The notes under the pieces: generated by a model
Told to the model about the DNA's origin: nothing
Seen by the model: only the letters and a program-made list of their open reading frames with translations
Databases searched by the model: none
Source: Owenia fusiformis
Taxonomy: Eukaryota; Annelida; Polychaeta; Sabellida; Oweniidae
Direction of reading: 5' to 3'
Length of the DNA: 64,000 bases
Assembly (NCBI GenBank): GCA_903813345.2
Contig: CAIIXF020000007.1
Coordinates: 30,848,698 to 30,912,697, forward strand
Made by a program: the position numbers and the translations under genes
Shown here: positions 8,401 through 35,400 of the stretch, piece by piece
How the letters are laid out: each line of letters starts with the position of its first letter
Position numbering within the stretch: the first letter of the stretch is position 1

Positions 8401-11400
8401 TGTATTATCTGATTCTACCATTATATTAACTGATTCTAGCAGTAGGTTAAGATATTACACTTTTTACTAATTCTTAAGTACATTTGTAAGTTTATACTTA
8501 TAGGTCTGTAGTTACTCTGAAACATATCCACTAAATTAAAGAATAAATTAAAGAAAAAACCTGTAACACTGTATTACAAACTATATGTCATCAGTAGGTT
8601 TAATTAATCCTAAACTTACCAAAAGTTCAAAGACTATTTGTAGACTGTCATATACACAAGAAGTCTATGAATTACATTATATAATATTGCTCCATGCAAT
8701 GTTTGGTGCTATTTAAAAACTTTCACCAAAAAGAATTTATACTAATGTCTACCAAGGTTACATTTTACAACACATGTTACTGTGTCCTTTATACTTAACT
8801 ACACGTAATTTCAAAGGCGACATTTATAACCTAATCTAGATTAGTGATGAATTAATTTATTATTAACTACTCGTAAGATGATCTAGTCGTAAGTATATTT
8901 TAGAAGTGGAGTGAATTAATAAATTTTATACTAAATATACTTTTAAATTCTCAATTGACAGTTTAGCTGCTTGATAAGTTAAACTTGTTTATTTTAAGAT
9001 AACATTCTTGAAAATCTATCAACCTTAATTGTGCTGTATTGAGTTTAGGTAAATCAGTATTGTTAATAATTAAACTTAATTACAGTAAGTCATGGGGAGT
9101 TCTGGACAAGCAAAACATAGGTAAGTTCTGGACTAGTAAGTCCTGATGAGTTTTGGACTAGTAAGTCCTTATGAGTTCTGAACTAGTCAAGTTTTGGACT
9201 TGTAAGTCCTGGGGAGTTTTGGACTATTAAGTCCTAATGAGTTCTGAACTAGTCAAATCCAAGAGTTTTGGACTAGTAAGTCCTTGTGAGTTATGGACTA
9301 ATAAGTAGTGGGGAGTTTTGAACTAGTGATCTGAACGTAGTACTAGTACATGTATCAAATTTATATTATTTTTTCACATCTTATGTCTGTTCTTGAGCGT
9401 AAAATATTAGAGTGCTAAGTTATTTCCCCTTTCAAAGATCCAACAATATTAAGTGGCTTTTAATTCAAATCTTAGTACATACATGTTTGAATGACTGTTG
9501 CAGCTACTTTTCTCTTCTTGGTACTTCTCATATAAATCTTCCTTGCTACATAGCCTCTTAGGAATGATTGTAAAATAACAGCACTGTGTTGACGTTTAGC
9601 TACAAGTTTCTTGAATCTTTGCTTCTGGAGCCACATCCTCATCACTGACTGTGCCAGTACAATCTTCTGCTGGTGTTCCTCAAACTTCCTCGATAGCTCC
9701 TCAATGTGGTAATACTTCAAGAATACCTAAATCAAAGAGATAGTAATACTTCAAGAATACCTAAAGTACAGAGATGTGGTAGTAATTCAAGGTTTGAAAG
9801 GTGCAGAATGGTCTTATAGTACCTGAAGCACAGAAAGTATGGCTTGAGGATAATGGCCTTACCCAGTTTACTCCAACATACTGTATAAGTGGTATTTAAT
9901 CCGAGCGGTTAATTTGCCGAATGGTCAAATTTTATCAATTTCCTAATTTTAATTTTCCTAATGACAAGAAACTTCCCATTTGATAACATTATGAAGGCAA
10001 TATTTCCGACATTTAATTTTCTGAGCCTGTTAAAAATTAGGCAATAGGCAAATTAAATGATTAGGCAAAATTACCACTTATACAGTATTTGTTTGCACTC
10101 ACTGAGGTCTATGTATAATAACACAAGAACACTTGATAACAACTTTTATGAAGAAAATATTAATGATCATTTTTCATTAAAATACATGCTTTGCTAAATT
10201 GCCACATAATCATGAGGTTGTTCTTAAAATCATTGATGGTTGTTCTCACCTTTGTCTTCCCAATAGCCCAGTCCTTAAGACCAATCCTTGTAAGCAGTGT
10301 TCTACAGCTGTCCTTGGAAACGACCACCTTCTCAAGCCAGTTAAAAGCAAGCACATAATACCTGAAATAAAACAATTCTACATGTGTATAAAGAATACAA
10401 TGCATAAACTCAAAATGAAAAAGCAGCTCTGTGATCATATTGCAAATGAGAAACAGAACTGAAAAAGGAAGTGTGTGCAACTAAGTATGATGTGTAGTCT
10501 TCTATAGATAATGTCTTTTAAATGAGCTCAAAATTTAACATTAATGTTCTTAATATTCAAAAGCTATATCTATTCTGTTGAGTAGCCAATGCATCTGATC
10601 TTACCTCTTGAGGAACTCTGATATAGGGACCCTATGTGAGTATCCCATACGCCTGATCTTGGTGGTTTCCAACACCCCAGTGTAGCGCAATTGAAGTAAG
10701 ACTTTGTCAGTGTCATACAACCCTGCAGCATTCTCAACATTGGGTCTGATACACCTGCAAAAGTCAATTACAAATAATATACAAGAAATCAATATGCAAA
10801 ATGGCACCACCTGCCAGTTGTTACAGACACCAGACTCCAAACGCTGAACACCAACCACCGAACGCCATCCACAAAAAAGTTGGAGACTATAATAATATGT
10901 CACCACTTCTGGAGCATGTTAAACTAGCAGTGCACCCATTGATGGGTGTCAAATCCTTGATGTACAATTTCTGAATTTATAGACCTTCATGGGAATTTTT
11001 GTTCCCATAAGGTTTAATATCCTTTAAAACTAATACTTTAAGAATCATCTATATTCTAAGATAATATAATTGATCTTTGAGCCTGAAGTCTCGTATATTG
11101 AACTTTAAGGGCACTCTGGTATTTTACCTAAATCTATCAAAACATCAATATACCTTTTGATGACAATTCAGGTCAATGATATGTTTAGGATTCTCAATAG
11201 CTGATCTATATCACATTGTATTAAATACCTACCTAACAAAATGAGGAGTACCAGCCACCATCTTTGAGAGGAGGTCCATAAGTGAATAGCGGAAATATGT
11301 CGCCACTGTTTGCTGAGACCTTGTTTGACTTGCATTGGCAGATCCACCCTGCAATTACAAGATGAAACTATTACTCGCCAGACATGATAAATTTACGATA

Positions 11401-14400
11401 AAGGCATCACAATCTTTGAACAAATGAGTGTTTTTTATTCTTTCATTTGACTTTCATTTGGTTAATCTTTATAGCGTGGAAATGTTTATTCGAAATCCTC
11501 AAAAGAATCATAACCAATATGCAACAATTAGTGTGAGTATTGAATGCAGTATTTGATTTGTTGGTAATTCTCAACATTTATTACTAACTTATACCCATAC
11601 CTTGCTCCCATGGGCACTCCTGATAGAGAAGGTAGAACCCGTTGAACTGTTTGGTGAGTTGATTGTACTAGATGGCGTACTTGTACTTCCCCAGGCCAGG
11701 GCACCTAAATACATTACAATAATACAGGGTGTCCAAAAAAAACAGGACCGTAAGAAAGTTGAATAACTCGGTCAATTGTGCATATTTTGCCTTGAAATTT
11801 TAGAATTATTTAGGTCATTCAATGTGAATTTTGTTCTGAAAGTTTGATGATAATCTGTTTATTGTGTCAAAAACTAGTCCTTTACAAAACATACTCAAAG
11901 GGCACTTCTCATCTCTATGCACAAACGAATCCTGCGAACAAAGTTGTTAATGACCCTGACCTATTCACATAAATGCGGATGGTAATAATTAGGGTAGTTA
12001 TTGCCCTCTTAAGATTGTTAGGGGTTTGTCAGTATTCACACTGGCTTTGAGAAATCCTCAAAGATAAAAGTTTGGGGGATTTAGATCTAGCGAATGAGCT
12101 GCCCATATGGTTTTCGTTCTGCAACTGATTTGCTAACCACCAAAGCATTGCCTAAACCATATCAGCATATCATTTGCAGTCTCGGTATGGTATTGGCTTG
12201 TTGAAACCACTGCTTAATTATCTCCTTAGATGTCCCTTCTGGTGTTTAGTGACCTCCAAAACTTGGTGAGAACTTACTGGTCCTTGTTCATGGTGATAGC
12301 ACGTCCTCAGTCACCTTAGAACCAAAAGGGACCGATGATTCCATGTTTCCTCATTGCCACCCAGGCAGTGCATTGTTCAGAATGCAATGGATGCTGCAAC
12401 ACTTCATCAGGAGGATGTAAGCCCCAGTAACAATTGTTCTTGGAACAAACGTGTCCATTCAGATAGACATGTGTGTAGGAGGATCATCAACAACTTCGTT
12501 CGCCAGATTGAATTATGCATAGAGATGAAAGGTGCACATTTGGGGCATGTTTTGTAAGGAGCTGTAGTTTTTGACTCAATCGGTAGATTGTTATCAAACT
12601 TTGACAACAAAATTCACATTGAATGAAAGAAATAAGGCAAAGTATGCAAAATTGACCGAGTTATTCAACTTTTTTACGGTCCTGTTTTTTTTTGGACACC
12701 CTGTATTACAGCAAAACCTGTGAAGTGAAACACTCTAGAAATGGAACACCTCTGCAAGTGGAACACTTTTCAGAGTTCCAAGATGAATCTCTATAAGTGG
12801 AACATCTCACATGTTGAACACTTCTTGGAGGTACTATTACACACATTCACTTGTTATTCCTGTACCTAAATTATTTGAAATAGGGGTTATTTACTATTAC
12901 AAACACTGTTACAGGCAAGGACGTTTCATTTTTACATTTAGAGTACAGTGTATATCTTGTACCGAATTACATATCAACTGATATTGTAACAAGAACAATA
13001 GATACAATAATATAATTGTTTGATCAACCCCATAGTACAAACAGGACATTCACCATTCAAGCATAACTATAATTATTACATTTTATATTCAAAATATGTG
13101 CATATGTACATGTATGTGCGTTCCGTTAAAAAATAAGAAAAATAAGAAAAAGTATAAAAGTTATCAGTGTAAGTTGTTAATAAATGCAGTAATGGAATCG
13201 AAGAGTAAAAAACTTTGGCATCAGATTACAAATCGTTGAACAATCCAACAAATAAAACATTAGCACGTAATATGCACTTCTTCAAGTCGAGTCCATCCAG
13301 TTTTTCAACATTCCAAGCACTTTTCCAGTAATTAAGGACCAAAGTTGTCGTAGTGATCCCCCTGGAATATTTTGAATTAAAACTAAACCGCCCCACTCCC
13401 CCCCTCCCTTAGCAAAAGTTGGCTATGGGCCTGTGGCTGCTTGATTTCTCTGATTTGAAGATTTAATACACACTTTACTGTCAGTTTACTTGGTAGAATG
13501 ATTGCACCCATTTTTAAATACAAGAATATGTGTATAAGCATATAACAGTATTGTTTACAATATCACACCAAGTACATGATAGTTTAATGTACACTGCGTT
13601 GACATCTAAATTCTACAGTAGGAATCCCATGATACATTGTGATTATCTAAGAATGTGATATGTGCGTTATAACTAGAGACAACTGCCCTAACTAGAGACA
13701 ACTAACAAATTACATGGCGTTCCAACTTCGTTTCCAAGCATACTAATGATTAAGACATAAGACATTATATAGAGCACACAGTAAAACCTGTATTATCTAA
13801 CACCCGAACCTACTCCCATATAATTAGTAGATTCTCCAATTGCTAGGCACAAGGCACATCAGGTTTCACTGTGAGAGCAGATTTTATGACATGCTCACAC
13901 TTAACACACAGAACGAACTTCACAAAATGAACATCTAATTTACCAAGAGTATAGTATTCTTTTCTCAATGCTAATCCCCCTGTATGAGATAAAATGAATA
14001 CCATGTAATTATGATACAAAATACAAGTACGAAAGGCTGTAAGTGGAACACCTCTGTAAAAACAATACATCTGTATATGGAACACTTCAAAGTCCAATGA
14101 CCTCTGTAAGGGGAACACCTCCCAGGTGGAACACTTTTTAGAGGTACCAAAGGTGTTTCACTTAAACAGATTTTATTGTATACAGCTTCATACTTGAGCT
14201 AAAACTATGTGAGCAGTCAGGGGAACAACAGTGAGGATAGTGTTAATGACTATAATTGTAAATTGCTGTAAAAAAGGTAGAAAAAAAATATGACTGCATA
14301 TCTAATGTAAACAGAAATAATTATTTTAAGTCTTTTGAATTAAGAGACAACAGTACGCTAAGAAAAAATCTTAAAAAATATCTAAAAAATATCAAAAAAG

Positions 14401-17400
14401 TTGAAAGTGACAAAATGTTGGAAAAAAAGTTGCTAGAAATAGTTCCAAAAATGTGAAAATTTAATACAGATGCCAAATGCTAATGCTGCCTGTCAAATAT
14501 CAGTGAAAAAATGGTGGTAACATAAATATGAACACTTTGACGATCATATAAATATGATACTTAACTAGAGGCTTACTAAACATAACACTTTTAAGTACAA
14601 AATAAACCTCAATCACAATAAAACATTAAAATAATCTATAGGTAGTAATGTCCTTAGTAACAAGTAACTAGTAACGTGACATGGCACTAGACTCATGTTT
14701 AATTCAAACACAATCATCCATATATGTGTGGGGCGCTTACCTGTTTTGGTGAGGGGATTCTGGAAAAGTGTGCGTACGAGTGAGATTTCTGACATACGGA
14801 GAAGATTCACAATTTCTGGAGGTAGGCGATCTCGATTTTTCTCAAGGAATTTCACAGCATCATATTCAACCTGCATGTACAGTACATTGAAATTCGAGAG
14901 TTATTATTGCAATATATGGACAAATATTTCGGTTAAAGATCTTAGATCACAAGAATGAACTGTTGGCTGTTAATTTGGAATCTGCTATTTCTAGGAATTA
15001 TGATCTGACATTCGAACATGACTGTATTCACGCCTTCTATAATCTGTAAAAAAAGTCAACATTTCACCCGGGGTATATTGGCGAACAATGCCCCTGGTAA
15101 TACGAGTAATGTGTGACGTCATAACGGCGGGCCATAGTAATGGTGGACCATAATGAATATTCGAAACATTTTGGTGAATTTTCATTTTCGAATCGTAATA
15201 TAGACCCCAGAGCAGGTGTAATATCGTCAAATACACCTCTTAGGGCTAGGCACAAAAGCTTTCGAAAACTTTTGTGCCTAGCCCTGCGGGGTGTATTCGA
15301 CGACATTACCCCTACTCTTCGGTCTATATTTCTTAATTCTATCACTATGACAACTTCTTAATTGTGACATAATAAGCATAGTACATACCCGCCCTGCATA
15401 ATGTTCAACCTTGAAGCTTAGTGAACCATCCCCTTTAGCTGGGGTGTAATAAGGAGACCTGATGTTGTTAGAAAACTTGTCTGAAAACAAGTAAAATGAC
15501 AATATAGGATGGGGCAATGCATCCATACAAAATAATTGAATGTGCAACAGGTAATTGGTATTGCATGGAATAATTCGTTTAATGATATCATTGCTAGGCA
15601 TTGACTTTGATCAGAATCCAAGAACACAGGCAATACCGAGTGCAACATGACTTTTATCCTATGCCAAGTAGAGTTTTAGTGATATAAGTTGGTAAGATAT
15701 ATCCTGTATCCTGATTTTGAGGTTTCTATATCCAGAACCTCCATATCTCCCGCTTTGGTGCATATCTTCCCGCCTCCGGTGCATATCTTCACACTCCCGG
15801 TAATGCAATAAAATGACTTTGCATCTGACTGATTTGTTTATTTTTACACCTTGTACTATTGAAATGGCCATATGCCCCTGAAAACTCTACTTGGTATTGG
15901 ATAACGCAATTATGTACGGTTGGTTTGGATATTGGGTTCATCCCTCGTGATATATCCTATGGTCCCTCAGGTAGATACGCATATCTCCCTCTGGATAAAC
16001 CCCATATCCAAAACCTCACAGTACATAACCCTTATTTGTCGATTCAAAAGTTGAGAGGTGTGAAATATATACATACTGGGATTCTAGCTATGCTGTAATA
16101 ATTGTATGTACTATTTTAAGCTTGATCAATATTTCATCTTCAGGAGTGAGCGCATACATACTTCATGGTTTCACATAATGGTCATAAAACATACCTATCA
16201 GGGATTGATCTGTGGCTTTAGGGAAATGGCTTTCCTCATCAAGTAAAGCTAGCAGCCCGACTGGTTTAGTAAGAAACATATCAAGCACTGGTCTATTATC
16301 AATGAATTCCACATCAGTGGCTTCTATGCCCTCATTCTTGTATTCTTGCTGGAATGCGCAATTAATTAGAGGTTATGTCACTATCGTGGCATATATGCCC
16401 GAGGTCTCAGTGATATATGGCCCGACCTTGGGAGGGACATTGATCTCTGAGAACCGAGGGCATATGTGCCACGATAGTGACATAAACGATTTATAACATA
16501 CCTATGATGATGTAGACTGGTCAGAGAGTACCGTTTTCTTATAGAATTGACAAACAAATGGTTTGAAAACGATTGAAATGAGTTTAGAAAAATTGCTCGC
16601 GCAGTTTTATCTTCGATTGATTGGTTGTGACGTCAGCGCCTTGACCAATCAGAAAGTTAGCGGGCGCGGGCTTTTCAAAACTTATATTGGCCCGCTGTCT
16701 TGTGTACACTTTGCACTATACATCATCATAGGTATGTTATAATATAAGTTATAACATACCTCTGATGATGTATAGTGCAAAGTGTACACAAGACAGCGGG
16801 CCAATATAAGTTTTGAAAAGCCCGCGCCCGCTAACTTTCTGATTGGTCAAGGCGCTGACGTCATAACCAATCAATCGAAGATAAAACTGCACGAGCAATT
16901 TTTTTAAACTCATTTTAATCATGTTCAAACCATTTGTTTGTCAATTCTATAAGAAAACGGTACTCTCTGACCAGTCTACATCATCATAGGTATGTTATAA
17001 ATCGTTTATGTCACTATCGTGGCACATATGCCCTCGGTTCTCAGAGATCAATGTCCCTCCCAAGGTCGGGCCATATACCACTGAGACCTCGGGCATATAT
17101 GCCACGATAGTGACATAACCTCTAATTATTGAATGATTTGAAGTGCAATACAGGATATATTCTTCTCGAGAAATTCTGTATTGGAACAAGACGAAGTGTG
17201 ATCGCGTGATCTTAGGCCAATGCATTTTACTAAGGAAATAATCCCTAAGAAATATTCTGTATTCTCTGTATTGTTACTGAGATTGTCCCCTCCGTACCAA
17301 TATTTTCTTTATTGCTATTGAGATGAACACTGGGGATAATCTCAGAAGCAATACAGATTGGTACAGCACAAAAACTGACCAATCAGAGGGCTTCATTTTA

Positions 17401-20400
17401 CACATCATACGATAAATAAAAATATAACATGTTAGTTAGTTCATCATCATAATGCAGTACAGCAGAATCTGTATATCTCAGCAGCTCTCTAACTCGGTTT
17501 AACTCCACTTGATATGAACACTATGTTTCTGAACAAGCAACGTTGGAGCCCCAGTCCCAAATTAGAAAGGTTTTATTTCAAGTTAAAATGAAAAACATTT
17601 ATCACTCACCATTTCCCAGGCAAAAATGTGCTGGTTGAAGTAATACTGGATCTGCTCATTGGCAATGTTAATGCACAACTGTTCAAATGAGTTGGTGCTA
17701 AAGTTCTCAAATCCAAATATATCCAGAATGCCTATGACTTGGGAGTCAGTTGGGCTGCAAGTAGAATGTAGCAATTATAACTTCAAGTTGCCATGGCAAT
17801 GGGGATCCTAGTATAAGACGTATGGAGGGCAGAGTGAAGAACCTGACATACTTAGCTTTAATTTGGTATACAAATGGTGAATTATTGATAGGTGGGTCAT
17901 TTTTTGGGTCGTGTTCCATTACTACTTACTACTTACTCTTATCTTGTGCATAAAATTCATTTAGCAAAATGAACAGAAATTAGTAAAGAGAAACGACACT
18001 AGCTCATTAGTATGGGTAAGGATCCATGTTTAAATTTTCACATTTTTACATTCTTGGTTTTTTACCCCATTTAGATTTTCAAATGTAAGTAAGAATATGT
18101 ATACCTGTCAGTTGCCTTCTTTGGCTTCAGCAATGCATTGATTTTATTGACAATCCAACTGAAGAGTCGTCCATATAAGACTTTAGCCATAGAATCCCTT
18201 GCATCTACTGCCTCCTCTACTTTGTTGTTGCGTATGATGGTCTCCCCTCTAGCAACCATGCCCATTGTGGTTAATGACTCATTCAGCTCCTTGGAGTTAA
18301 TTCCAAGCATACTGGCAACTGAAATGTTGTAGGTATATGTAGGTATATTCAGGACTTCATTCGGGAATATACTGGTACATTTCAGTGTTCATTAACTGCT
18401 ATCAATGTGTACTAGTCAGAGAATTACATGTGGCCGTTACCTCTGCTTGATACTGACCAGTGATACAGCCAACTATTGTTTTGGACTAAGAAGCCACAAT
18501 ATCTTCACACACAAAGGTGTGCTGCAAAGGTGTACTACAGACACCCCTTGTCAATGTCGCATGAATGACTTACAAACAGATTTTTAATCTGGAGTCTGAT
18601 AAAAACTTTCAAAAATACATACCAATTTTTAGCAGTTCAGGATTGGCTACAGAACAGGACTGTTCATACTTCATCTCTCGTTCTTTGAAATTGATATTTC
18701 CAATATGGAGTATAGATGAGAGAATCTTATAAACAGATTCTACTTCCTGGAAAATTAAAATGAACATATAAATTCTGTGATTTGTAGGTACGGTGAAACC
18801 TGTAAAGTGGAACACCTCTGTTAGTTGAACACTTCAGATTCCCAAGACCAGTATATCTTAACACCTTTTGAATCTGAACACCTTTCAATGGAAATGCTTT
18901 TTTGTCATTTCAGACCACAGGTTTTACTTATTTTTATCCTTTGATTTATTGATTTGATAATCTATGTATGATACACTGTAATATATACGTATTTTGACTT
19001 TACCTGTGATTTGAACCCTATCATTTCGAAGCAATGTTGAACAGCTCGGAACTTGACCCGGTTGATTGAGACAGAGGAGACATCTATAATGTCTTTGTTG
19101 TAACTATTCATGTATCTAAAATGACAAAGGTATGTTCTTGCTGTACACACTGTTTGTGGAAGATTTCAATTAATAGATATTTATATAGATCTAAATGTAG
19201 ATACATAAAATAAATGTACCCAAATTGCATTGAATAAAAAGTGGAACATGTTTTAAACAGTTAGACTACAAAATAACAGTGGTCACATGACCCTTTTATT
19301 TACTCATTGCTCAAATTGCATATTTTACTTGTTGTTCTCCAGTTCCCTGACTTAGCAAATTCACCAACAATTGAATACCTGAAATCTTTCTTGACATCCA
19401 AGTGATATTTCCCATCCTTATCGTCATGTGCTAACCCATCATAGATGTAGTAGAATATGTGGAAGTTCTCTTCTTTCCTACAAAAAAAGCAAAAGTAAGT
19501 TACAATTCTTATTTCATTAATAGGACAATGCATGTTAGTTGGAATTGATCAAAGATACAAAATTATGTTTGTTATATAGTGGCTATTTGTTTCAATATGT
19601 ATGCATGTAACCTATACACTTACTGGTTTTGGTGGATTACTCTTGATTTCTCCAGTAAATATTCTGACATTTTGGCTGAAAATAAGCAATATACAGTTTA
19701 AGACAATAGGTTAGGGCAGTATGATATTAGCTGTCCTGTAGTAGATTTGAACTATATCCCTTGCACTTTTTTGGGAAATGGTCTTAGACAGAACTATTGT
19801 GAAAATCAGTCAAGATTACATAAGGCTCCTGGTCATTAGCTCAGGAATGTATACATTCAGTTATTGTAGAGAAGTATGACTGAACATACAGTCATTCATT
19901 ATAAACCATGTTCATTTAAACTAACCAATCTAATCTATAATCCACTTAAATAACGAGCACATACCTCCCGTGACCTTGCCATATGGTGTGAAGGTCATTT
20001 CTAGATATTTGCCAAAACGGCTACTATTATCATTGATCACAGTCTTTGCATTGCCAAATGCCTCTATAAGAGGGTTCACTTGCAAGATTCTATCCTCTAA
20101 TGTCCTATTGGGAGCCTGAAATGAATAAGTCATCATTAAAAACACATAAAGCTTATTTTTACAGATTCAGTGTTTATAATTTAGGATTTTATTATTCTCA
20201 ACTTATAACCAAGGTATGCATAGACCCTAATTAACAAAAAATTGTCTTCAAATTTAATATCTCTTTCAAAACCATCTACTACCGTCAAGTCCATTTATCA
20301 TTAATTCCAGCTCTGATGTGAAAATCATTACAACAGCTTATTTCTGCAGATTCAATGTTCCTAATTTTGGTTTTATTGAGCTCGACTTATCTAATTGATT

Positions 20401-23400
20401 TATATCCAACTTTTATCAATTTGCCTTACTTCAAAGGCTCATTATAATAACATAAATAATTTCAATTAAAGGACTCGTCTTTGACACATTCCTTCAGATC
20501 ATGTCTCACGCAGATCTTGCTTCTCTTCAAAACGGCCTCATATAAAGTTTAAAAGTACATTACTAAAGTGTAAAACAAAAATTAGTGCAGCAAAGAGAAA
20601 ACAAGCAAAATGTGGTCTTTTTTTAAATATGCATGTGTAATAGTACGAGCATCTAAAAAGTCAAGCTTTAAACTGAATATGGCACAATAATATGCTAAAG
20701 ACACTTTGATGTAATTACTGTACTACTACTGCAGTATACATTCCAAACTCACTCTTGCAGGTCTTCAATTTTCTGCTGTATCTTGGTGATTTTCACAATA
20801 TCACATTGTCACTTACCATCATGGTCTCATACCTTCCAACCCTGTTTGTTAAAGTATGGGTGACAGATCATAAGGCCCATTTTGTGAGACTAATTGTTTC
20901 AGTCGTCCTAATGTAAAAGGGAGCAGATACTCGCACAGCCTAACACAAAACCCTCCCTAGCAATGTTATTTATTGCACTAGGGCTAGTTGTTGCACTAGG
21001 AATATATACTCACCCTCCCTAGCAGGGTTAGTTATTGCACTATGAATGTACACTCACCCAGCCTCACTATCTATCAGGATTACTTGTAAAAGAATGAACA
21101 TATACTCACCCTCCCTAACAGGGTTAGTTGTTGCACTAGAAAATTAGCACTTTCTGTTTTGCCAGCTCCACTCTCGCCAGAGATGACTATACACTAAAAC
21201 ACACAACAGAGAGAAAAGAGCGTTAGAATTACTGTAAGCAACGTGCAATTTCCCAAGCCATTGTGCATTATGTTAAAGCTAAAGGGAGTGCAAATTCCCA
21301 GGTGTATACACTATTAGAAAAATCCATCTTGGCATGTCTCGAAAATTGAGGATCATCGCCTTCATATTGTTGACTTTAGTGGGACAGTGGATTCAACACT
21401 TAATAGCCTATATAGCAGGTCAAGGATACACTTGCTAATATTAAAGAAAAAAATGATATTAGAGACAGAATTCAGCCACCGTTCAGAAGATGCGTTTCAC
21501 AGAATCAGGAGTAACACTATCCACAATCAAATGTGTCAACAAAATAAAGCTTAAAACAAATACATGGTTTGAAGTAAAACTCTGTTCAAAGCAGTTTTTA
21601 AAAGCATTTTTGTCCTATATGTCAACATGTTTTGGATAACATTTAATTGTGTCGTCCTGTATAATGCAAGCTCACATAAGATACAGATACAATATTAACA
21701 ATACAGGGTGGTCACAAATGGGGGCTACCTTCCCAAGGAACATAAACTGCTGAACTAGAAAAGCAGCTGTCATTGTTTTGCCAGAGCCGGACTCTCCACT
21801 TATCACTACAGTCTAAAAATCAATAAAAACAAGTTAGCATACATTAGTACATGTACCTGTAAAAAACTATTAACCTCTTGACTACCTGGAGTGACAAGAT
21901 TTCTCGTCACCTCAGAAATGACCCTGAAACCCAGTGACGAGAAAATCTGTCACAAAATTTATCACTAAAATTGCTCTTATTTGAACAATTTTCATCCAAT
22001 TAACACAAAAATTGTTTTAAAATGTGTAGATATGATCTCTGTCGTCTAATTTTCCTAAGTTGAGCATCTGAAGTTGTATAAGTATGTAGTATAATGTCAA
22101 AAGGTGGCAAAAATGAAAAAATCTCTGGTTTCAACTGATTTTAGAGCCTGGGATTCAAGAGGTTAAGAAGAACACCTCTGTAAGCGGAACACCTACATTA
22201 GTGGAAGACATTTTAGAGTCCAAGGACTGACATTCTTGTTAAATACACCTCTGTAAGTACAGCACCTCTCATGTGGAACAAGAGGTACCAAATGTATTCC
22301 ATTTACACAGGTTTTACAGTATGTTGATTTTGTATTTATGATGAAACTATTTCATAGTACATGTATGAAAACTTCGTATAATATTGATACATATTAAACT
22401 ACATGTAGTTAATGAATTGGTGGTAAAATCAAATCAAAATCCTTGGATATTGTTTAATCATCCAAATATTTGCTTACTAAAAATTGTTTGAGCAAATTTT
22501 GAAAAAGGTGGAATTCTATATGACAGATCAAGTTATACCATTAACCATTAATTTTCATTTATTTTATGCATATTTTATACAATTTTATTATTTTTTTAAA
22601 TTTCTGATCAAGTTAAACCATATATGTAACATTTGTACCTGATTATGTTTGTGATGCATCATCATTTGGAAACTTTGGTCTGCTATTGCAAATATATGTG
22701 GTGGATGGTCTGGCTTGCCACAATTGCTGTAAAGCTTGCTATACTGTAAATTAAAAAATATGACAAATATATATCATATACTGTTAATGGAAATATGGCA
22801 AGTTTTATTACATGCACAGATTATGTTTCCAGCATACATTTTTATCCAATACTTGAACGAGTTTGAGGTAAACCAATCAGGTACATAAAATGATGTATTT
22901 TCAACAGCAGGTAGAATAAAGCTTTATGACCCGGCAAAGTAGACGGATAAAATTATTTTTGGATATAAATATTCATTGGAAAAAATAAATAAAAGAGAAC
23001 ATAGTACTGAAACACATTAGCCTAGGATGATAGGATAAACAGTAGCAGATAGATCATCCTATATTCGGTTCAGAATAATGGGATTACCCTTGTATTGGGC
23101 ATATATATTACCCTTGTATTGGCCATATAATATATTAAGAATGACAAACATTCCACTGAGATAATAAATCCCAAGATACAATTCATAAATGATATAACTA
23201 CCTCATCACTGTATATAGAGAGAGGAGTGAAGGGGTTTACAGCAAGTAGTATATCTCCAATATATGTGTAGATCTGCCCCTTCATGTATCGCTGAAACAG
23301 GTGGGTGACGATCCCTTCCTGGAAATATGCCAAAAAATCTAACTTGAGCATAGGCTTGATATACACAATGTCAAGTGTCTTTTCATATATGAACTACTCC

Positions 23401-26400
23401 AAATGTTCACATGTAGATGGCATGTGTGAATGGACTTGTGAATGGAATATAGACCTTATTGTAAATAGCCTTTATTTAAGAAAAATACTTCACGATCATG
23501 CCTCTTAGCTCATGGATTTGGGAAATATCATTAGGCCGTAAGAAGATTCTTTGTTTTGCGTCCCCTTGCTTGCATGATTTTGAGTAAATCAGAAAAAAAC
23601 AAACACATCCAGATAGCAACCACAAGGGTTTGAAAGTAACATCGCATTTCGTTCAATCAGATTCAGACGAAATGGCGGATAAATTGATGTGCATCAAAAT
23701 TGACAGTGTTATTGATTACTTTGGCATACATTGTGTGTTTTCTTATTTTTACCCTTGAATAACACCTATATTTAAATATATTGTATAAAATGTATAGATC
23801 TGTGTTTGCATCACTGCAAATTGGTATGTCATCCCTTTTAATGCCCATAAAATGTATACATTTCTAAGCAAACAAGTTTGTGTTTTTTCTTGAGTTTGTG
23901 TTTGTTTTCCTTGTACCCTTGCATGATTTGGATTTTGCCAGGACACAAAACAAAGAATCTAATTCTTATAGCAGCTTACACTTCTTTGTCATATGTCCCA
24001 CTGATAATCCCCTCAAAACAGTGTTTCCAACTGAACATTTCAAACTAAACATTTCCTACTGAACATTCCCTTCTTCTACATGTTACATTCATACCAAGAT
24101 CACTTTAAGATTTAATCATATAGCTCGATGTTATATCCAACCTCACTGAGATCCTCAAGGAGGGCCAAATCATCATATGAATCAATTGCTTCATGACGTG
24201 ACTTCCTCAGCTTGCCATGTTTGGTCGTCACCTCTGGCTCATGTATCACCTTCCCCATGGCTTTCACCAGGTTCTGGAGCTGCCTCTTGATCTACAAATA
24301 AGATTATATCAAAAACAGGGTGTCCCAAAAGAAACAGTATGCTGCTGACATGTTGTAAATTCTGCACCAATTGTTTTCGATTTTTTAAAACAAGGTGTTG
24401 GATGCTTCAAATACATCAATTAAATACATGTATACACAAAGACAAAGAATACTCAGGCTCTACAGAACAAAGCTACATTACTGATATAAGACACTCATCC
24501 TAGTATGCTGTGATTCTGCACTGCTAAAGAAAAATTGCAGAATTTTGGATTTCCAAATTTTTGCAGAATTTGATTTTTGGGACAGAATTTTGGGGAAAAC
24601 ATGATTTTTCCAGTCAATCATCTCATCTCTCATGTGTCACTCACCAAGACACCTAATGCCAGAAGTTTGTCGTGCAAAATTTGGGGTGGAATATCAGATT
24701 TCATACAGAATTTGGTGCAGAATTTGCATTTTTCTCATCAATAAAACTAGGATGTGTGTGATAATATATATATATATATATATGTACATAGTACTATATA
24801 TATACAAATTGTTGAACATAAAAGACAGACATAAATATCTCAGATAATTAATCTAAACATAAGACATTTAATTATATTGCATTTAATGAATGATTCTCCA
24901 CCTACAGTAGTATCCTTTAAACCAATCACAGCAAATAATGATAAAACATGCTTGTCATATTTCTGAAACATTTGTGTTAATTGATGCTATATTTCTGAAA
25001 AATCCGTGTTAAATGATGCTATATTTCCCGAAACATTCGTGTTAAATGATGCTATATTTCTGAAACATTCTTGTTAAATGATGCTATATTTCTGAAACAT
25101 TCTTGTTAAATGATGATATATTTTAGAAACATTCTTGTTAAATGATGCTACATTTCTGAAACATTCGTGTTAAATGATGCTATATTTCTGAAACATTCGT
25201 GTTAAATGATGCTATATTTCTGAAACATTCGTGTTAAATGATGCTATATTTCTGAAACATTAGTGTTAAATGATGCTATATTTTTGAAACATTCTTGTTA
25301 ACATCCTCCTATCCAGAATCCGTACCTCCTTCTTCCCCCTGCTATAACCAATTTGGAACCGCCCGATTAAACTAAATCACGTGATCTAATTATGCGCACT
25401 GACTTATACAGGATTTCTGTCGCAGTGTTGCGACAGCCAATCAGATTGCGAGTTCTTAATCGGGGGAATGCTGACTGCTTATCGCAGGGTGCAAAGAAGG
25501 AAGAATATATTCTGGATTTTGAAGCCCTGTGGTCGGAGGATGTCTTGTTAAATGATTTTCATACAAGAATAAACGAAAGAAAAAAGTGAAAATCCCAAAG
25601 ATGAGCAATTACTGTTAATTTGTAGAATGACAACACCTTAAACAACTTGTTTATTTCAATCAGATTCATCATAGACATAAACATATTTGAATCAATCTTA
25701 GAGTTAAAAGTAAACAAAAGCACTCATATTTTATTAGATAAAGTAGAATTAGTGTCTTATATTAAGAAAAGAGATTCCTGGTTATGCTAAATCCATAGAT
25801 CACATATCACAAGTAAAAGCCTGTATTATCTGTTGAAACCCCTATAAAACATATTAGCTCATGCTCGCGTCTTGTTATGCATAATGTTATTCCTATGTAT
25901 GTTATTTCTTATTATTGAAATATCCCTGCTTACATCCATTTTGTGGCGTCTTTATTATCGTCCTGGTGCACTAAAAATTGATGTAAATGTTTGCTTGTTA
26001 GGTCATTTAACCCTTGGGTGTCTAGGAAATATATCCTTCACTAATTTTCTCTTTTTATGAATGGACATGTTGATTTTATACACAAAACATACAGATATGT
26101 TAAACAAATACTCAACCTAAACTCATCCATTGAATTTGTAAATTAATTCATTATTTCATTATTAAATTGCTAACTTCACCTCTGGAAGTGAAAGGGTTAA
26201 AGCTATATATTTAATAGCTGTCTCTCCTTAGTAAAGCTAAGTTTCAACACGTCCTGAGGCAATTTGACATGAAAAGATGGATTTACCATATGTATATACT
26301 GATACATGTTCATTGTTTGGTCTGTAAGTCCCCAAAACAGTCCTAAAACCCATATGGAATTATCACAAGGCCTTTTTCTGAAATACTGTGCATTGTTAAT

Positions 26401-29400
26401 GTTTAGTTCGATATCAGAAAACCCATGTGGAACGGCTTTTCTGAAACACTGTACAAATGCTTGCTTCTCAATAAGGGAGAGACAATTGAGTTGTCATTTA
26501 TTCATAATAATAATTCCATAGAATTTTCAGTTGATGGGCTATTTCCTGAAAACCATTAAGTCCTATCATGGTTGATATATTTCAGTAAATACAACATTAA
26601 TATTCAGCTGTCAGGTTGCAACCAACTCAGAAATTAGCTACCCTCGTGATATTTACAGTCATAAAAAGTCCAAATAGCTAAATCAACCAGCTACTGATAT
26701 TTCTACAAATTATGCAAATAACTGTGATGTCTGTTTATCTTATTCTTTGCTAATTGAACTCTTTTTAGCACTCTCATTACAAGATTTTCCACTTAGAAGT
26801 TTAAGTTAAGGTTGGAGTTGAGGTTTCATTTGAGGTTTAAGTTGAGGTTGGAGTTGCGGTTTCATTTGAGTTACGGCAACTCATTCAACTCACCTCTGTA
26901 GTATCTTCGGGGACTTGAGTAATGAATGGGTGTGACAGAAGACTAGACACAAATGGACGACTTTCAAAATCTTTCACCAAGCACCTGAAAGTAGATAAAA
27001 TATAAAATATTAGGGAGTTTAAGCTTGCATATAAAATCGAAACGCCAACCTATACGTATGACCAATCACCCATACAAATGCATCGCTTAAATATTTTCCA
27101 TTCACGTTTAGGTTGTTAAAAACTCTCTATTGTATTGTATTGTATTCTTTATTTACCTCTAATATAAGAGAGTTACAATTGTACATTAATTGTGAATTAA
27201 TACATAAATAAGAAAGTAGATAAATTATTTGCTCATGTTTATATATTTTGAAAATCGCCCATCCAAATTTATCGCTTAAATATTTTCCATTCACGTTAAG
27301 GTTGTTAAAAACTCTCTATTGTTTTCCTCAAATATGAGACCAGTATGAATGTATAAGTGTGCTCATGAGGAGGAAAAGTAAAATATGATATGAATTTAAA
27401 ACTGGAAACTGAAAGACCCAACATTCAATAACTTCAATAAGTGAACAATATAAACATATGAACAATAATACTTCATCATAATATTAAAAAAATGCAAAAA
27501 CTGCATGAGGTTGAATAATATAATCAACAGAACATGTATTTCTTTATGTTTTCAAACTACTGGAGGACTGTTTAGTAGGGGAACCTTGGGACTAGAAAAT
27601 GTCAATGCAAAACCTTAAAACTAATTTAGATGGTCGGTGTGTTTTTAGACAGCATTTACTAGATGCACACTCATCAAGTGTAACTTGTTAAAATTTCAAT
27701 AATAGAAGCATTAATAAAAGTACATGTAACTTACAAAGTGTGTCAAATGGCTTACATGTATGTACCCCCCCCCCCCACAGTATGAACTAGAGTGGGTAAC
27801 TCTACATGAATTATATCATTAGAAAGAACTTTCAATTCTGACCACAGATTCCCATTGACATTCTTTTAATTTACTCATATTTGAAGAATACAGGTAAATG
27901 TCATGTTTAATACTGCAAGTATCGTTACATAAAATACAAATGTGACCTCCATCTAAAATACAAACATATAATTTTACGCAACAAACCTCCTATAAGACTA
28001 TTACTCAAGTAAGGAAAATAGTCCAAACCGGATTTCCTAGAAGTACCACTCTTGTAGAAGAAACACGGAACTACATTATACTGCCATATAACCAAATATT
28101 GCAATAGAGTAGTTTTGGGTGTTTTCTAAAATTTGTCAGACATGAGTAATAATGTGTAGACTGTTATACCATATAAACATATCTCTGAAAGTTATAACAA
28201 TAGTAATAAAACTCATTCAGACATCATTTGTATATTCAAATCCCAAAGGCACATAATACAGAATATATAATAAATCTAAATAAAACAAATATTGACATAC
28301 CTATGAACTGAATCTCTCTGATTTAGCTAGACTAAATGATCATCATGACAAAATAATAACACAATATAAGATAAAAGACCTTGCATAATTTAAATGGCCT
28401 TCCAAAGTAAATCATTTCTTGTGTTGATCATTTCAAATAGTACCAAAAAATTCTGCAATAAACACAAGATCACCTTTCACACCAAAATGATTAAATGCAC
28501 ATTTTTATGCTAATTACCTAAAATTAATGTATCATTCTAAGAAAAATATACATAAATCATGAATTTTTGAAAGGGTTGGGATGAGAGATTTCACCAGGCA
28601 ACATGAGTGCAAAACTTTGAGTTTTTTAATATTCTTATCAAAGTACATTGTTTAATTTGGTACTTTGATCTTGTCAAGTGAGTCATTTGACATACATGCT
28701 CAATGCTGAAATACATAGAATTCAAAGATACCTACAAGTATGCGGTCTATACTTTCATAACTGGTGTTTTTGTATGTTTATATACTGTATTATACAGAAC
28801 ACATGTAAAAACATGTATAGTGACCCATATGTCGGAGTCGGAGAGACAGATATGATTATGAGTCAATAATAGATATTTAGACTGCCATGTTATGCTTATC
28901 AAGAATATAGTAGCATGTTCAAGCAATTGCAATTTTAGATACTGTAAATTTTCAAGGTTCCCTAATTTTCACTATATTCGCTGAAGAGGCTAGACAGTGA
29001 AATTAAAGGCATAGTGAATATTTGATTTAACATTGAATTCAATTGAATATTTCTTCAAACAGTCAAATTAAATGCCCATGAAACATTTCAGACTGATAAA
29101 ATAGTGAATTTTTTTGTCAGTGAAAATTTGGGCTTTTACAGTATTAAAGATAGATGGTTTAAGTTAGCTAGTTTAAGTTGACTAACCTCAATTCATCTTC
29201 CTTCCTCTATATGAAATTCATATAAATTAGGATATTTCGTTGAATTTTTGAATATAATGAATTTTATGACTTCAAAATATCAGTTAATTTATTTTTATAG
29301 GTATACTTATTTCCGATCTCTCGACCTCTTAGAATTACATTGAAATAAACCCTAATAGTAATAATCTACATACCTAAATAATAAAATGTTTCCTAATACC

Positions 29401-32400
29401 TTCAATCATTGTACTGACTGTATACTCTTAGTCTTATAATGCATATAGGGTCTAAGGTAAGGTCCTACAAGTTAGACCATGGGAAGGAAGTATGTGTACA
29501 GTGTTGTAGGAGTATTGACATAAGATGGAAACTTTATACACTTTAAATAGTAAAATCAACAAGCTCAACAGGTTTACGAGTCAGGTACAATCAACTGCAT
29601 AACAAATCGTGATTTCAATTTTCACATATTTCTACATTTTTTTTCACATACTAGTACAGGGCGTTCAATAAGTATTGCTAATTTTGCTATAACTTTTGTT
29701 CTATTTCTTTTTTCTACGTGAAACTTTCACAACATAAGGTACATATATCTGACTTTATCCTATGAAAGTTTCAAGACAATCAAATCAGTATTAACAAGGT
29801 TATGGTTACTAAGGTAACCAATATCATGGTTATGCGGGGCAAATTCTTGACGTCACTTTGGACGACATTTTGAGTGTTGAAACCAGTATCATTTAATGCC
29901 GTTTAACTCTTGGGATATGCAGTGCAGTTATAAACTAGATAATGGCAACTCCGCGGAGTAGCAAATCCCAACGAACAAAATATCAATTACCGAATTCCAA
30001 TCAATTATACTCATTATTACTTTGGTTAAAATTGAAAAATTTAGATTTTAGAATTGCGAATTCCTGCAAAGCAGCCATTTTGAATTTCCTGAGGTACAAA
30101 TTTGAGTATTATATAGCCATACGTTGAAGGGATCGAAAAATTATTGCGAAATCGTACATTAGATGGCCATTTTGAATTTTACGAGGCTCGAATAAGAAAA
30201 AAGATACAATATTTGCAATCTACTCTTAATTGCCTTTCATTTGAGTATAATAAACCTATACTTCAGAAAGATCTACAAATTAGCGAAAATTTCTGTTTTC
30301 CTGACCCCCCATACACAGCCCCTGGGGGTCAGGATGAAAAACACAGAATATATGTGAAATAGATAGATGTTGCAAATATACTACCAAAATTTCAAAAAAT
30401 AATATTAAATGCTTTGGTTTAGAATGGAAAATTTATGATTTTTGTGAAAAAGTCCCGTCATTTTTAAAGCGGCGGCCATCTTGAAAAAATCCATTTTGAA
30501 TTTTCTGAGGTACAAATCTGAAAAATAATACCATAATTGTTATCTACTCCAAAATTCCTTCAATTTGAGTATTATATAGCCATACTTTGAAGGGATCGAA
30601 AAATCATTGCGAAATCGTACATTAGACGGCCATTTTGAATTTAACGAGGCTCGAATCAGAAAAAAGATACAATATTTGCAATCTACTCTTAATTGCCTTT
30701 CATTTGAGTATAATAAAGCTATACTTCAGAAAGATCTAAAAATTATCGAAAATTTCTGTTTTCCTGACCGGCCCCTGGGGGTCAGGATGAAAAACAAGGA
30801 ATATATGTGAAATAGATAGATGTTGTGAATATACTACTAAAATTTCAAACAATAATATTAATTACTTTGGTTTCGAATGAAAAATTTATGATTTTTGCGA
30901 AAAAGTCCTGTCATTTTTAAAGTGGCGGCCATCTTGAAAAAATTTTTTTTGTGTAAAACTTTTCATCAATATACATCTTTCCACCAAATATGAAGAAAAT
31001 CTGTCTACTAATATTTGAGTTATCTTCCGGACGGACGGACGGACGGACGGACGGATGGACGGACGGACGGAGGGCTTCACTATATCCCTACCGAACTTCG
31101 TTCGTTGGGATAATAATCCTTTCCAGAGTCACTTCATGATCCACATTAACTTCATGAGGTGCTCAGAATAGGCAGGCACCCTTATCATCAATGCACATTT
31201 GCTGTCTTGTGACCCACTGTGATACACATTTTTGAAGCCACCCTTAAAGTTTGTGGCTAGGGAGGTGTTCACTGTAGACATCAGCTGGTTGAGATTTTGG
31301 TGCGATATTCCTCTCAGATCCCTTTTCACTGGGGCAAATACAACAAAATCAAGCGAGGCTTCAACTGGAAAATATGCTCTGGAGGGCAATGCTTCCATGC
31401 CAATCTCTGTTATTGTATTTAGGAGAATAGAGGATCTGTGAGCAGGGGCGTTATCCTGGTGGACCGTATAGGTCAATATTGCTCTTTGAGGACGTTGAAG
31501 TGTGTGGCTAGGGATGTACAGTGTTCACTGCAGACATCCGCTGATTGAGATTCTAGTGCCATATTCCTCTCAGATCTCTTCACCGCTGTTAGATAATTCA
31601 TATAATTCAAACTGACAACATCAAGATTTGACCATATCAACAGTTTTTATTCATCAGAGTGTTTATTTGATGTATAACAATAATTCATCATGTAAACCCT
31701 TAAGGTTGCCCCGTGTATCCGTGACAATGGTTACCCTAGAGACTATAAGACTATTACTCAAGTAAGGAAAATAGTCCAAACCGGATTTCCTAAAGTACCA
31801 CTCTTGTAGAAGAAACACGGAACTACATTATACTGCCATATAACCAAATATTGCAATAGAGTAGTTTTGGGTGTTTTCTAAAATTTGTCAGACATGAGTA
31901 ATAATGTGTAGACTGTTATACCATATAAACATATCTCTGAAAGTTATAACAATAATAATAAAACTCATTCAGACATCATTTGTATATTCAAATCCCAAAG
32001 GCACATAATACAGAATATATAATAAATCTAAATAAAACAAATATTGACATACCTATGAACTGAATCTCTCTGATTTAGCTAGACTAAATGATCATCATGA
32101 CAAAATAATAACACAATATAAGATAAAAGACCTTGCATAATTTAAATGGCCTTCCAAAGTAAATCATTTCTTGTGTTGATCATTTCAAATAGTACCAAAA
32201 AATTCTGCAATAAACACAAGATCACCTTTCACACCAAAATGATTAAATGCACATTTTTATGCTAATTACCTAAAATTAATGTATCATTCTAAGAAAAATA
32301 TACATAAATCATGAATTTTTGAAAGGGTTGGGATGAGAGATTTCACCAGGCAACATGACTGCAAAACTTTGAGTTTTTTAATATTCTTATCAAAGTACAT

Positions 32401-35400
32401 TGTTTAATTTGGTACTTTGATCTTGTCAAGTGAGTCATTTGACATACATGCTCAATGCTGAAATACATAGAATTCAAAGATACCTACAAGTATGCGGTCT
32501 ATACTTTCATAACTGGTGTTTTTGTATGTTTATATACTGTATTATACAGAACACATGTAAAAACATGTATAGTGACCCATATGTCGGAGTCGGAGAGACA
32601 GATATGATTATGAGTCAATAATAGATATTTAGACTGCCATGTTATGCTTATCAAGAATATAGTAGCATGTTCAAGCAATTGCAATTTTAGATACTGTAAA
32701 TTTTCAAGGTTCCCTAATTTTCACTATATTCGCTGAAGAGGCTAGACAGTGAAATTAAAGGCATAGTGAATATTTGATTTAACATTGAATTCAATTGAAT
32801 ATTTCTTCAAACAGTCAAATTAAATGCCCATGAAACATTTCAGACTGATAAAATAGTGAATTTTTTTGTCAGTGAAAATTTGGGCTTTTACAGTATTAAA
32901 GATAGATGGTTTAAGTTAGCTAGTTTAAGTTGACTAACCTCAATTCATCTTCCTTCCTCTATATGAAATTCATATAAATTAGGATATTTCGTTGAATTTT
33001 TGAATATAATGAATTTTATGACTTCAAAATATCAGTTAATTTATTTTTATAGGTATACTTATTTCCGATCTCTCGACCTCTTAGAATTACATTGAAATAA
33101 ACCCTAATAGTAATAATCTACATACCTAAATAATAAAATGTTTCCTAATACCTTCAATCATTGTACTGACTGTATACTCTTAGTCTTATAATGCATATAG
33201 GGTCTAAGGTAAGGTCCTACAAGTTAGACCATGGGAAGGAAATATGTGTACAGTGTTGTAGGAGTATTGACATAAGATGGAAACTTTATACACTTTAAAT
33301 AGTAAAATCAACAAGCTCAACAGGTTTACGAGTCAGGTACAATCAACTGCATAACAAATCGTGATTTCAATTTTCACATATTTCTACATTTTTTTTTCAC
33401 ATACTAGTACAGGGCGTTCAATAAGTATTGCTAATTTTGCTATAACTTTTGTTCTATTTCTTTTTTCTACGTGAAACTTTCACAACATAAGGTACATATA
33501 TCTGACTTTATCCTATAAAAGTTTCAAGACAATCAAATCAGTATTAACAAGGTTATGGCTACTAAGGTAACCAATATCATGGTTATGCGGGGCAAATTCT
33601 TGACGTCACTTTGGACGACATTTTGGGTGTTGAAAGCAGTATCATTTAATGCCGTTTAACTCTTGGGATATGCAGTGCAGTTATAAACTAGATAATGGCA
33701 ACTCCACGGAGTAGCAAATCCCAACGAACAAAATATCAATTACCGAATTCCAATCAATTATACTCATTATTACTTTGGTTAAAATTGAAAAATTTAGATT
33801 TTAGAATTGCGAATTCCTGCAAAGCAGCCATTTTGAATTTCCTGAGGTACAAATTTGAGTATCATATAGCCATACGTTGAAGGGATCGAAAAATTATTGC
33901 GAAATCGTACATTAGATGGCCATTTTGAATTTTACGAGGCTCGAATAAGAAAAAAGATACAATATTTGCAATCTACTCTTAATTGCCTTTCATTTGAGTA
34001 TAATAAACCTATACTTCAGAAAGATCTACAAATTAGCGAAAATTTCTGTTTTCCTGACCCCCCATACACAGCCCCTGGGGGTCAGGATGAAAAACACAGA
34101 ATATATGTGAAATAGATAGATGTTGCAAATATACTACCAAAATTTCAAACAATAATATTAAATACTTTGGTTTAGAATGGAAAATTTATGATTTTTGCGA
34201 AAAAGTCCCGTCATTTTTAAAGCGGCGGCCATCTTGAATTAATCCATTTTGAATTTTCTGAGGTACAAATCTGAAAAATAATACCATAATTGTTATCTAC
34301 TCCAAAATTCCTTCAATTTGAGTATTATATAGCCATACTTTGAAGGGATCGAAAAATCATTGCGAAATCGTACATTAGACGGCCATTTTGAATTTTACGA
34401 GGCTCGAATCAGAAAAAAGATACAATATTTGCAATCTACTCTTAATTGCCTTTCATTTGAGTATAATAAAGCTATACTTCAGAAAGATCTAAAAATTATC
34501 GAAAATTTCTGTTTTCCTGACCCCCCCATACACGGCCCCTGGGGGTCAGGATGAAAAACAAGGAATATATGTGAAAAAGATAGATGTTGTGAATATACTA
34601 CTAAAATTTCAAACAATAATATTAATTACTTTGGTTTAGAATGAAAAATTTATGATTTTTGCGAAAAAGTCCTGTCATTTTTAAAGTGGCGGCCATCTTG
34701 AAAAAATTTTTTTTGCGTAAAACTTTTCATCAATATACATCTTTCCACCAAATATGAAGAAAATCTGTCTACTAATATTTGAGTTATCTTCCGGACGGAC
34801 GGACGGACTGACTGACTGACGGACTGACGGACGGACGGACGGACGGACGGACGGACGGAGGGCTTCACTATATCCCTACCGAACTTCGTTCGTTGGGATA
34901 ATAATCCTTTCCAGAGTCACTTCATGATCCACATTAACTTCATGAGGTGCTCAGAATAGGCAGGCACCCTTATCATCAATGCACATTTGCTGTCTTGTGA
35001 CCCACTGTGATACACATTTTTGAAGCCACCCTTAAAGTTTGTGGCTAGGGAGGTGTTCACTGCAGACATCAGCTGGTTGAGATTCTGGTGCGATATTCCT
35101 CTCAGATCCCTTTTCACTGGGGCAAATACAACAAAATCAAGCGAGGCTTCAACTGGAAAACATGCTCTGGAGGGCAATGCTTCCATGCCAATCTCTGTTA
35201 TTGTATTTAGGAGAATAGAGGATCTGTGAGCAGGGGCGTTATCCTGGTGGACCGTATAGGTCAATATTGCTCTTTGAGGACGTTGAAGTGTGTGGCTAGG
35301 GATGTACAGTGTTCACTGCAGACATCCGCTGATTGAGATTCTAGTGCCATATTCCTCTCAGATCTCTTCACCGCTGTTAGATAATTCATATAATTCAAAC

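Follow-up and report, generated by a model that had tools for sequence, protein, structure and literature searches.

Mutually exclusive exons at the ATP-binding loop of a myosin motor have so far been described for class II. In the muscle myosin heavy chain (Mhc) genes of scallops, Crassostrea (Mhc2), Aplysia, Biomphalaria, Lottia (Mhc6), Daphnia and Palaeoptera, the exclusive exons of 'cluster-2' comprise the P-loop, the helix that follows it and loop 1, and in the scallops it is chiefly loop 1 that varies among the exons of clusters 2 and 3 (PMC3912159). The cluster-2 exons of Daphnia have identical P-loops (PMC2257972). Another class II gene, Mhc2 of the ctenophore Mnemiopsis, also has alternative exons beside the ATP site, but the stretch they encode begins within the helix that follows the P-loop and takes in loop 1 and switch-1 (PMC3912159). 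The first-pass annotation of the DNA analysed here had cited exclusive exons as a known feature of muscle myosins, and P-loop pairs are indeed published for class II, molluscs included (PMC3912159).

In class III, where a kinase is joined to the motor, vertebrates supply two motors from two genes, MYO3A and MYO3B. Drosophila NINAC, of the same class, has a P-loop that departs from the consensus, and the variation among its isoforms lies in the tail and spares the P-loop. Among the matches listed from open-licence full text, we found neither a P-loop exon pair in MYO3A or MYO3B nor any report of such a pair in a class III myosin. According to PMC5583752, many myosins have splice variants, and the data set of that study retained, from every exclusive cluster, the 5' exon alone; such data sets may therefore hold an unpublished record of the pair described below. 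Myo3a/b expression and exclusive-exon totals in oyster are mentioned separately in PMC6611504.

The window (64,000 nucleotides of a contig of the annelid Owenia fusiformis) carries on its minus strand a gene predicted to encode a class III myosin. Exons 1–21 (14741..51362, minus strand, ATG at 51362) were joined by splice signals and phase into a conceptual protein of 875 amino acids without a stop, in which exons 1–7 form the kinase domain and the motor begins with exon 8. Pfam recognizes both Pkinase (E 3.2e-60) and Myosin_head (E 1e-173) in this one chain, an arrangement that points to a class III myosin with an N-terminal Ser/Thr kinase fused to the motor and agrees with the original assignment to myosin III. 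Over 866 residues the protein is 54–55% identical to a provisional template sequence of human MYO3A. The end of the motor and the neck (9475..11704, minus strand) are modelled less firmly. They comprise a loop-2-like candidate for exon 22 (11704-11601, minus strand), for which a strict scan listed no candidates and a relaxed one three, as well as exons 23–25 and exon 26. An IQ motif in exon 26 (E 1.4e-8) represents the neck that class III requires after the motor; the 3' end of this exon is provisional, position 9475 being the end of the open frame only.

Between exon 10 (22639..22743) and exon 12 (19965..20115, loop 1 to switch-1) of this gene lie two versions of exon 11, termed 11a (21729..21812) and 11b (21110..21193) and separated by an intron of 535 nt (21194..21728; all on the minus strand). 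Each is 84 nt long, open and of phase 0 at both ends, each has an AG acceptor and a GT donor, and CTAAC branch-point-like motifs are located at -22 and -30 of the two acceptors. The motif GESGxGKT is kept in both exons: 11b has the canonical GESGAGKTE and 11a the variant GESGSGKTM, with the eight codons of the loop, as counted from the exon starts, at 21155..21178 and 21774..21797 (minus strand), respectively. The second half of the 28-residue block reads FMFLGK in 11a versus LTLLGR in 11b. In total, 18 of the 28 residues and 52 of the 84 bases are identical, and 10 of the 18 shared residues are written with different codons. The first-pass annotation had thus placed the pair on the correct strand and at the correct coordinates, and had rightly credited both exons with proper splice sites, intact phosphate-binding residues and the quoted difference in the second half of the block. 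Mutually exclusive exons are predicted from the same length, the same phase, the same type of splice sites and homology (PMC3228551). Equal length, the same phase, compatible splice sites and homologous peptides for the same structural element are what 11a and 11b display, and this was counted in favor of an exclusive pair. We consider it probable that the two exons are an old tandem duplicate that was kept as an alternative pair, giving the gene two motors with different kinetics.

The peptide of exons 10, 11a and 12 has its best PDB matches among myosins, and five of these alignments delimit the block as the strand before the P-loop, the P-loop itself and the helix behind it, ending at the edge of loop 1 as placed by the position of the loop-1 insertions of muscle myosins. 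The 10 residues that differ between 11a and 11b all lie in this block, and loop 1 and switch-1 are untouched. Relative to 11b, 11a replaces A by S within the P-loop and E by M directly behind it, and further changes fall in the helix (LTLLGR to FMFLGK). Like the cluster-2 exons, the pair encodes the P-loop and the following helix of a myosin motor, but it sits in a kinase-myosin and not in a class II muscle gene, it stops at the edge of loop 1 instead of covering it, and its copies vary the P-loop itself, unlike the scallop exons with their loop-1 differences and the Daphnia exons with their identical loops. Thus, 11a and 11b work like cluster-2 without being members of it. The resemblance to Mnemiopsis Mhc2 ends at the position beside the ATP site. 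What is new is the myosin class and the altered P-loop signature, in which S stands for A and M for E, whereas the type of pair was already known. The gene shares the kinase and motor with vertebrate MYO3A and MYO3B, but two exons would take the place of the two vertebrate genes. With NINAC it shares the class and, in 11a, a non-consensus P-loop, yet in NINAC the isoforms vary the tail and in this gene they would vary the P-loop.

Neither of the signature residues of 11a appears to be incompatible with a functional motor. At the position of its M, the chains of muscle myosin II and myosin Vc among the five PDB alignments carry V, a hydrophobic residue (GKTV), and GESGSGKT is the normal sequence of class IX myosins. 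For these reasons, 11a looks like a working, differently tuned ATP pocket rather than a dead one. It is the more divergent version: compared with the MYO3A template, 5 of the 28 block residues differ in 11b versus 10 of 28 in 11a.

A tblastn search of the window with 22 exon peptides (1–10, 11a, 11b and 12–21) matched 11a and 11b to each other with E 1.5e-8, while the best off-target match of any other exon had E 0.047. Within the window, the search thus detected no duplicate of the other 20 exon positions among exons 1–21 and no third copy of exon 11. Aligned to each other, the exons score 51 versus a shuffled mean of 17, a value reached by none of 300 shuffles, while the 150-nt flanks of the two copies are no more alike than shuffled sequence (their likeness was reached in 272 and 298 of 300 shuffles). 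The similarity is thus confined to the exons. This bears on the suspicion that two alleles or paralogues were merged in the assembly, which would leave an artefactual second copy: with only 52 of 84 bases identical, unrelated flanks and no other exon of 1–21 duplicated, such an artefact is scarcely credible.

Between the two exons, silent change exceeds amino-acid change according to the NG86 method (dN 0.39, dS 1.30), which was counted as a sign of selection on the pair; the corresponding dN/dS values were 0.50/0.73 by LWL85 and 0.38/6.3 by maximum likelihood (ML). Neutral relics were simulated by letting one copy drift while the other was kept, at four distances with 5000 runs each, and a run was scored when it retained an open frame, the P-loop motif and at least 18 of 28 residues at no more than 52 of 84 identical bases. 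None of the 5000 relics at any of the four distances did so. The observed 52 of 84 bases falls between the second and the third simulated distance (means 56.0 and 48.6), and once the limit on base identity was lifted, 11.7%, 0.8%, 0 and 0 of the runs passed, from the shortest to the longest distance. The simulation was run without indels or loss of splice sites, an omission that favors the relic hypothesis. This simple simulation supports selection on the protein encoded by 11a, and both copies look selected.

These results weigh on the reading that an exon duplication left 11a behind as a decaying relic. Such decay could account for its weaker donor (see below) and for its poorer fit to the Myosin_head profile, where it scores 15.9 bits compared with 24.9 bits for 11b; the best single Pfam match of 11a is nSTAND3, another P-loop family, below the cut-off of that model. 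A relic would, however, hardly have kept an open frame, AG and GT, a branch-point-like motif and the P-loop all at once, nor 18 of 28 residues despite heavily changed silent sites, a combination that no neutral run reproduced, and we regard this explanation as very unlikely. The weak donor and the worse profile fit of 11a nonetheless count against the two-motor reading that we prefer.

Regarding the choice between the exons, every outcome keeps the reading frame, but inclusion of both would add, and skipping of both would delete, 28 residues at the ATP site. The use of one of the two is thus the only sensible outcome for the protein, as the first-pass annotation had expected from the repeat or removal of the same block, and the exons are predicted to be mutually exclusive. 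The preserved frame would also permit mRNAs that always include both exons and encode a protein with a tandem P-loop block. This would insert a second strand, P-loop and helix into a conserved fold, in which the five PDB alignments have a single block between the parts encoded by exons 10 and 12; constitutive double inclusion thus appears extremely improbable.

No built-in device that would enforce exclusion was found among RNA pairing, spacing, U12/U2 incompatibility and frame-based decay. For competing RNA structures, the best intron–intron pairings in 60-nt windows did not exceed those of shuffled sequence, as 6, 7 and 16 of 20 shuffles matched them. Steric blocking was ruled out because the 535-nt intron between the exons is too long, a U12/U2 clash because both donors look U2-type, and frame-based mRNA decay because mRNAs with both exons or neither stay in frame. 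Absence of such a device does not exclude an exclusive pair, as known pairs can use trans-acting factors. When splice sites were scored with a small matrix built from the gene's own sites, the donor of 11a (3.36) ranked third-lowest of 25 and the acceptor of 11b lowest of 24. Weak sites are common in regulated exons, and one weak site per exon would suit a choice made by trans-acting factors.

The same data can be read differently: 11b may be the main exon and 11a a minor or tissue-restricted one that is not strictly exclusive, so that some mRNAs contain both exons or neither and give rise to motors that are dead or dominant-negative although the kinase still works. The weak donor of 11a, its greater distance from the myosin profile, the lack of an exclusion device among those considered and the open frame of every exon combination would all fit this scenario. 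On the other hand, the fact that 11a has preserved its P-loop and looks selected implies that its protein is useful, which in turn requires one-of-two splicing in at least some cells. We judge this scenario unlikely, if clearly less so than the relic.

In the intron following 11b, the 3' end of that exon recurs as two decayed copies (20937..21049, minus strand). The nearer one (21004-21042) is 95% identical over 39 nt and includes an exact copy of the 11b donor (AGG/GTGAGTATAT) with the last exon-like base at 21014, whereas the farther one (20950-20981) is 84% identical over 31–32 nt and has no copy of the donor. Splicing at the copied donor (21014) would read in-frame stops. One could speculate that the copies act as decoy donors that lower the use of 11b; alternatively, they might be the start of a small tandem repeat. 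Intron 10 harbors two inverted-repeat pairs near 11a (21870-21889/22147-22166 and 21891-21910/21934-21953) with 20-nt arms that are 85% complementary, perhaps small elements.

Under the preferred reading, a single exon of this class III gene would have been duplicated in tandem long ago, and each mRNA would receive either 11a or 11b. The swap would change the strand, P-loop and helix, and all other parts of the motor, loop 1 and switch-1 included, would stay as they are. It could yield two catalytically competent MYO3 motors that differ in ATP and ADP kinetics, in line with the different ATP turnover proposed in the first-pass annotation, and, as a consequence, in gliding speed and in the growth rate of actin protrusions.

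One position of the block is of particular relevance in this respect. We take human MYO3A residue 442 to be position 17 of the block, as mapped on the provisional MYO3A template. Residues 442 and 697 of this template agree with the numbering in PMC10801316. By this mapping, the equivalent of residue 442 is Ala in 11a (codon 17, 21762..21764) and Asn in 11b (codon 17, 21143..21145, both minus strand). As reported by Cirilo and colleagues, the human variant H442N, which is linked to deafness and described as near the P-loop, raises kcat from 2.44 to 6.50 per s and gliding from 70 to 163 nm/s, a motor about 2.5-fold faster, and filopodia extend ~3x faster with it (PMC10801316). The exon swap would thus touch a site that is known to govern how fast a class III motor moves, and this overlap helps the idea of a kinetic difference. 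The parallel lies in a change within the same block, near the P-loop, that alters ATPase and speed, but H442N is a point variant (H/N; PMC10801316), while the splice pair combines A/N with nine other changes. Since the human H is absent from both exons and nine further residues differ, H442N cannot tell which isoform would be the faster one. A more specific proposal, which we put forward tentatively and with less conviction than the pair itself, is that splicing selects the ATP pocket: through the P-loop and the equivalent of residue 442, a single MYO3 gene might provide a faster and a slower (or clamp-like) motor at protrusion tips.

If this were the case, protrusion growth in, for example, photoreceptor microvilli and mechanosensory stereocilia could be set by one gene, where vertebrates have two. 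As far as the matches listed from the open-licence literature show, no alternative exon has yet been known to alter the P-loop signature in an unconventional myosin, and the pair would be the first; P-loop exon pairs, so far described in muscle myosins, would also exist in an unconventional one. Provided that both exons are used, they would represent a swap experiment by nature, with the ATP pocket of a class III motor as its target.

Relatives were sought with a two-row motor alignment, which confirmed none of 48 pattern matches in viral_contigs and none of 291 in genome_contigs. A switch-1 pattern gave no match in viral_contigs and one in genome_contigs (L001), a myosin with the canonical GESGAGKTE that is 30–40% identical over its pieces. 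This myosin gene (L001:5128-6797) has intron-like gaps, and the contig that carries it, labelled as a pond MAG of Verrucomicrobiaceae, is probably eukaryotic contamination.

Several repeats were observed elsewhere in the window. The large intron between exons 6 and 7 contains two copies of a 139-nt-period repeat (30491-30743 and 34244-34496), each then followed by a CGGA run and ~3.75 kb apart, an arrangement that suggests either a segmental duplication or one element present twice. Two satellite arrays with units of 165/166 nt (36968-37845 and 38253-39375) share one intron, and by eye their units appear to be reverse complements of each other. An open frame of 268 amino acids (41785-42591, minus strand) resembles the end of a LINE reverse transcriptase by eye, with no Pfam match at E 0.01, and overlaps a 28-nt satellite at both ends. 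Finally, a 162-nt satellite of four copies with 96% match (49599-50243) is located ~200 bases upstream of exon 3.
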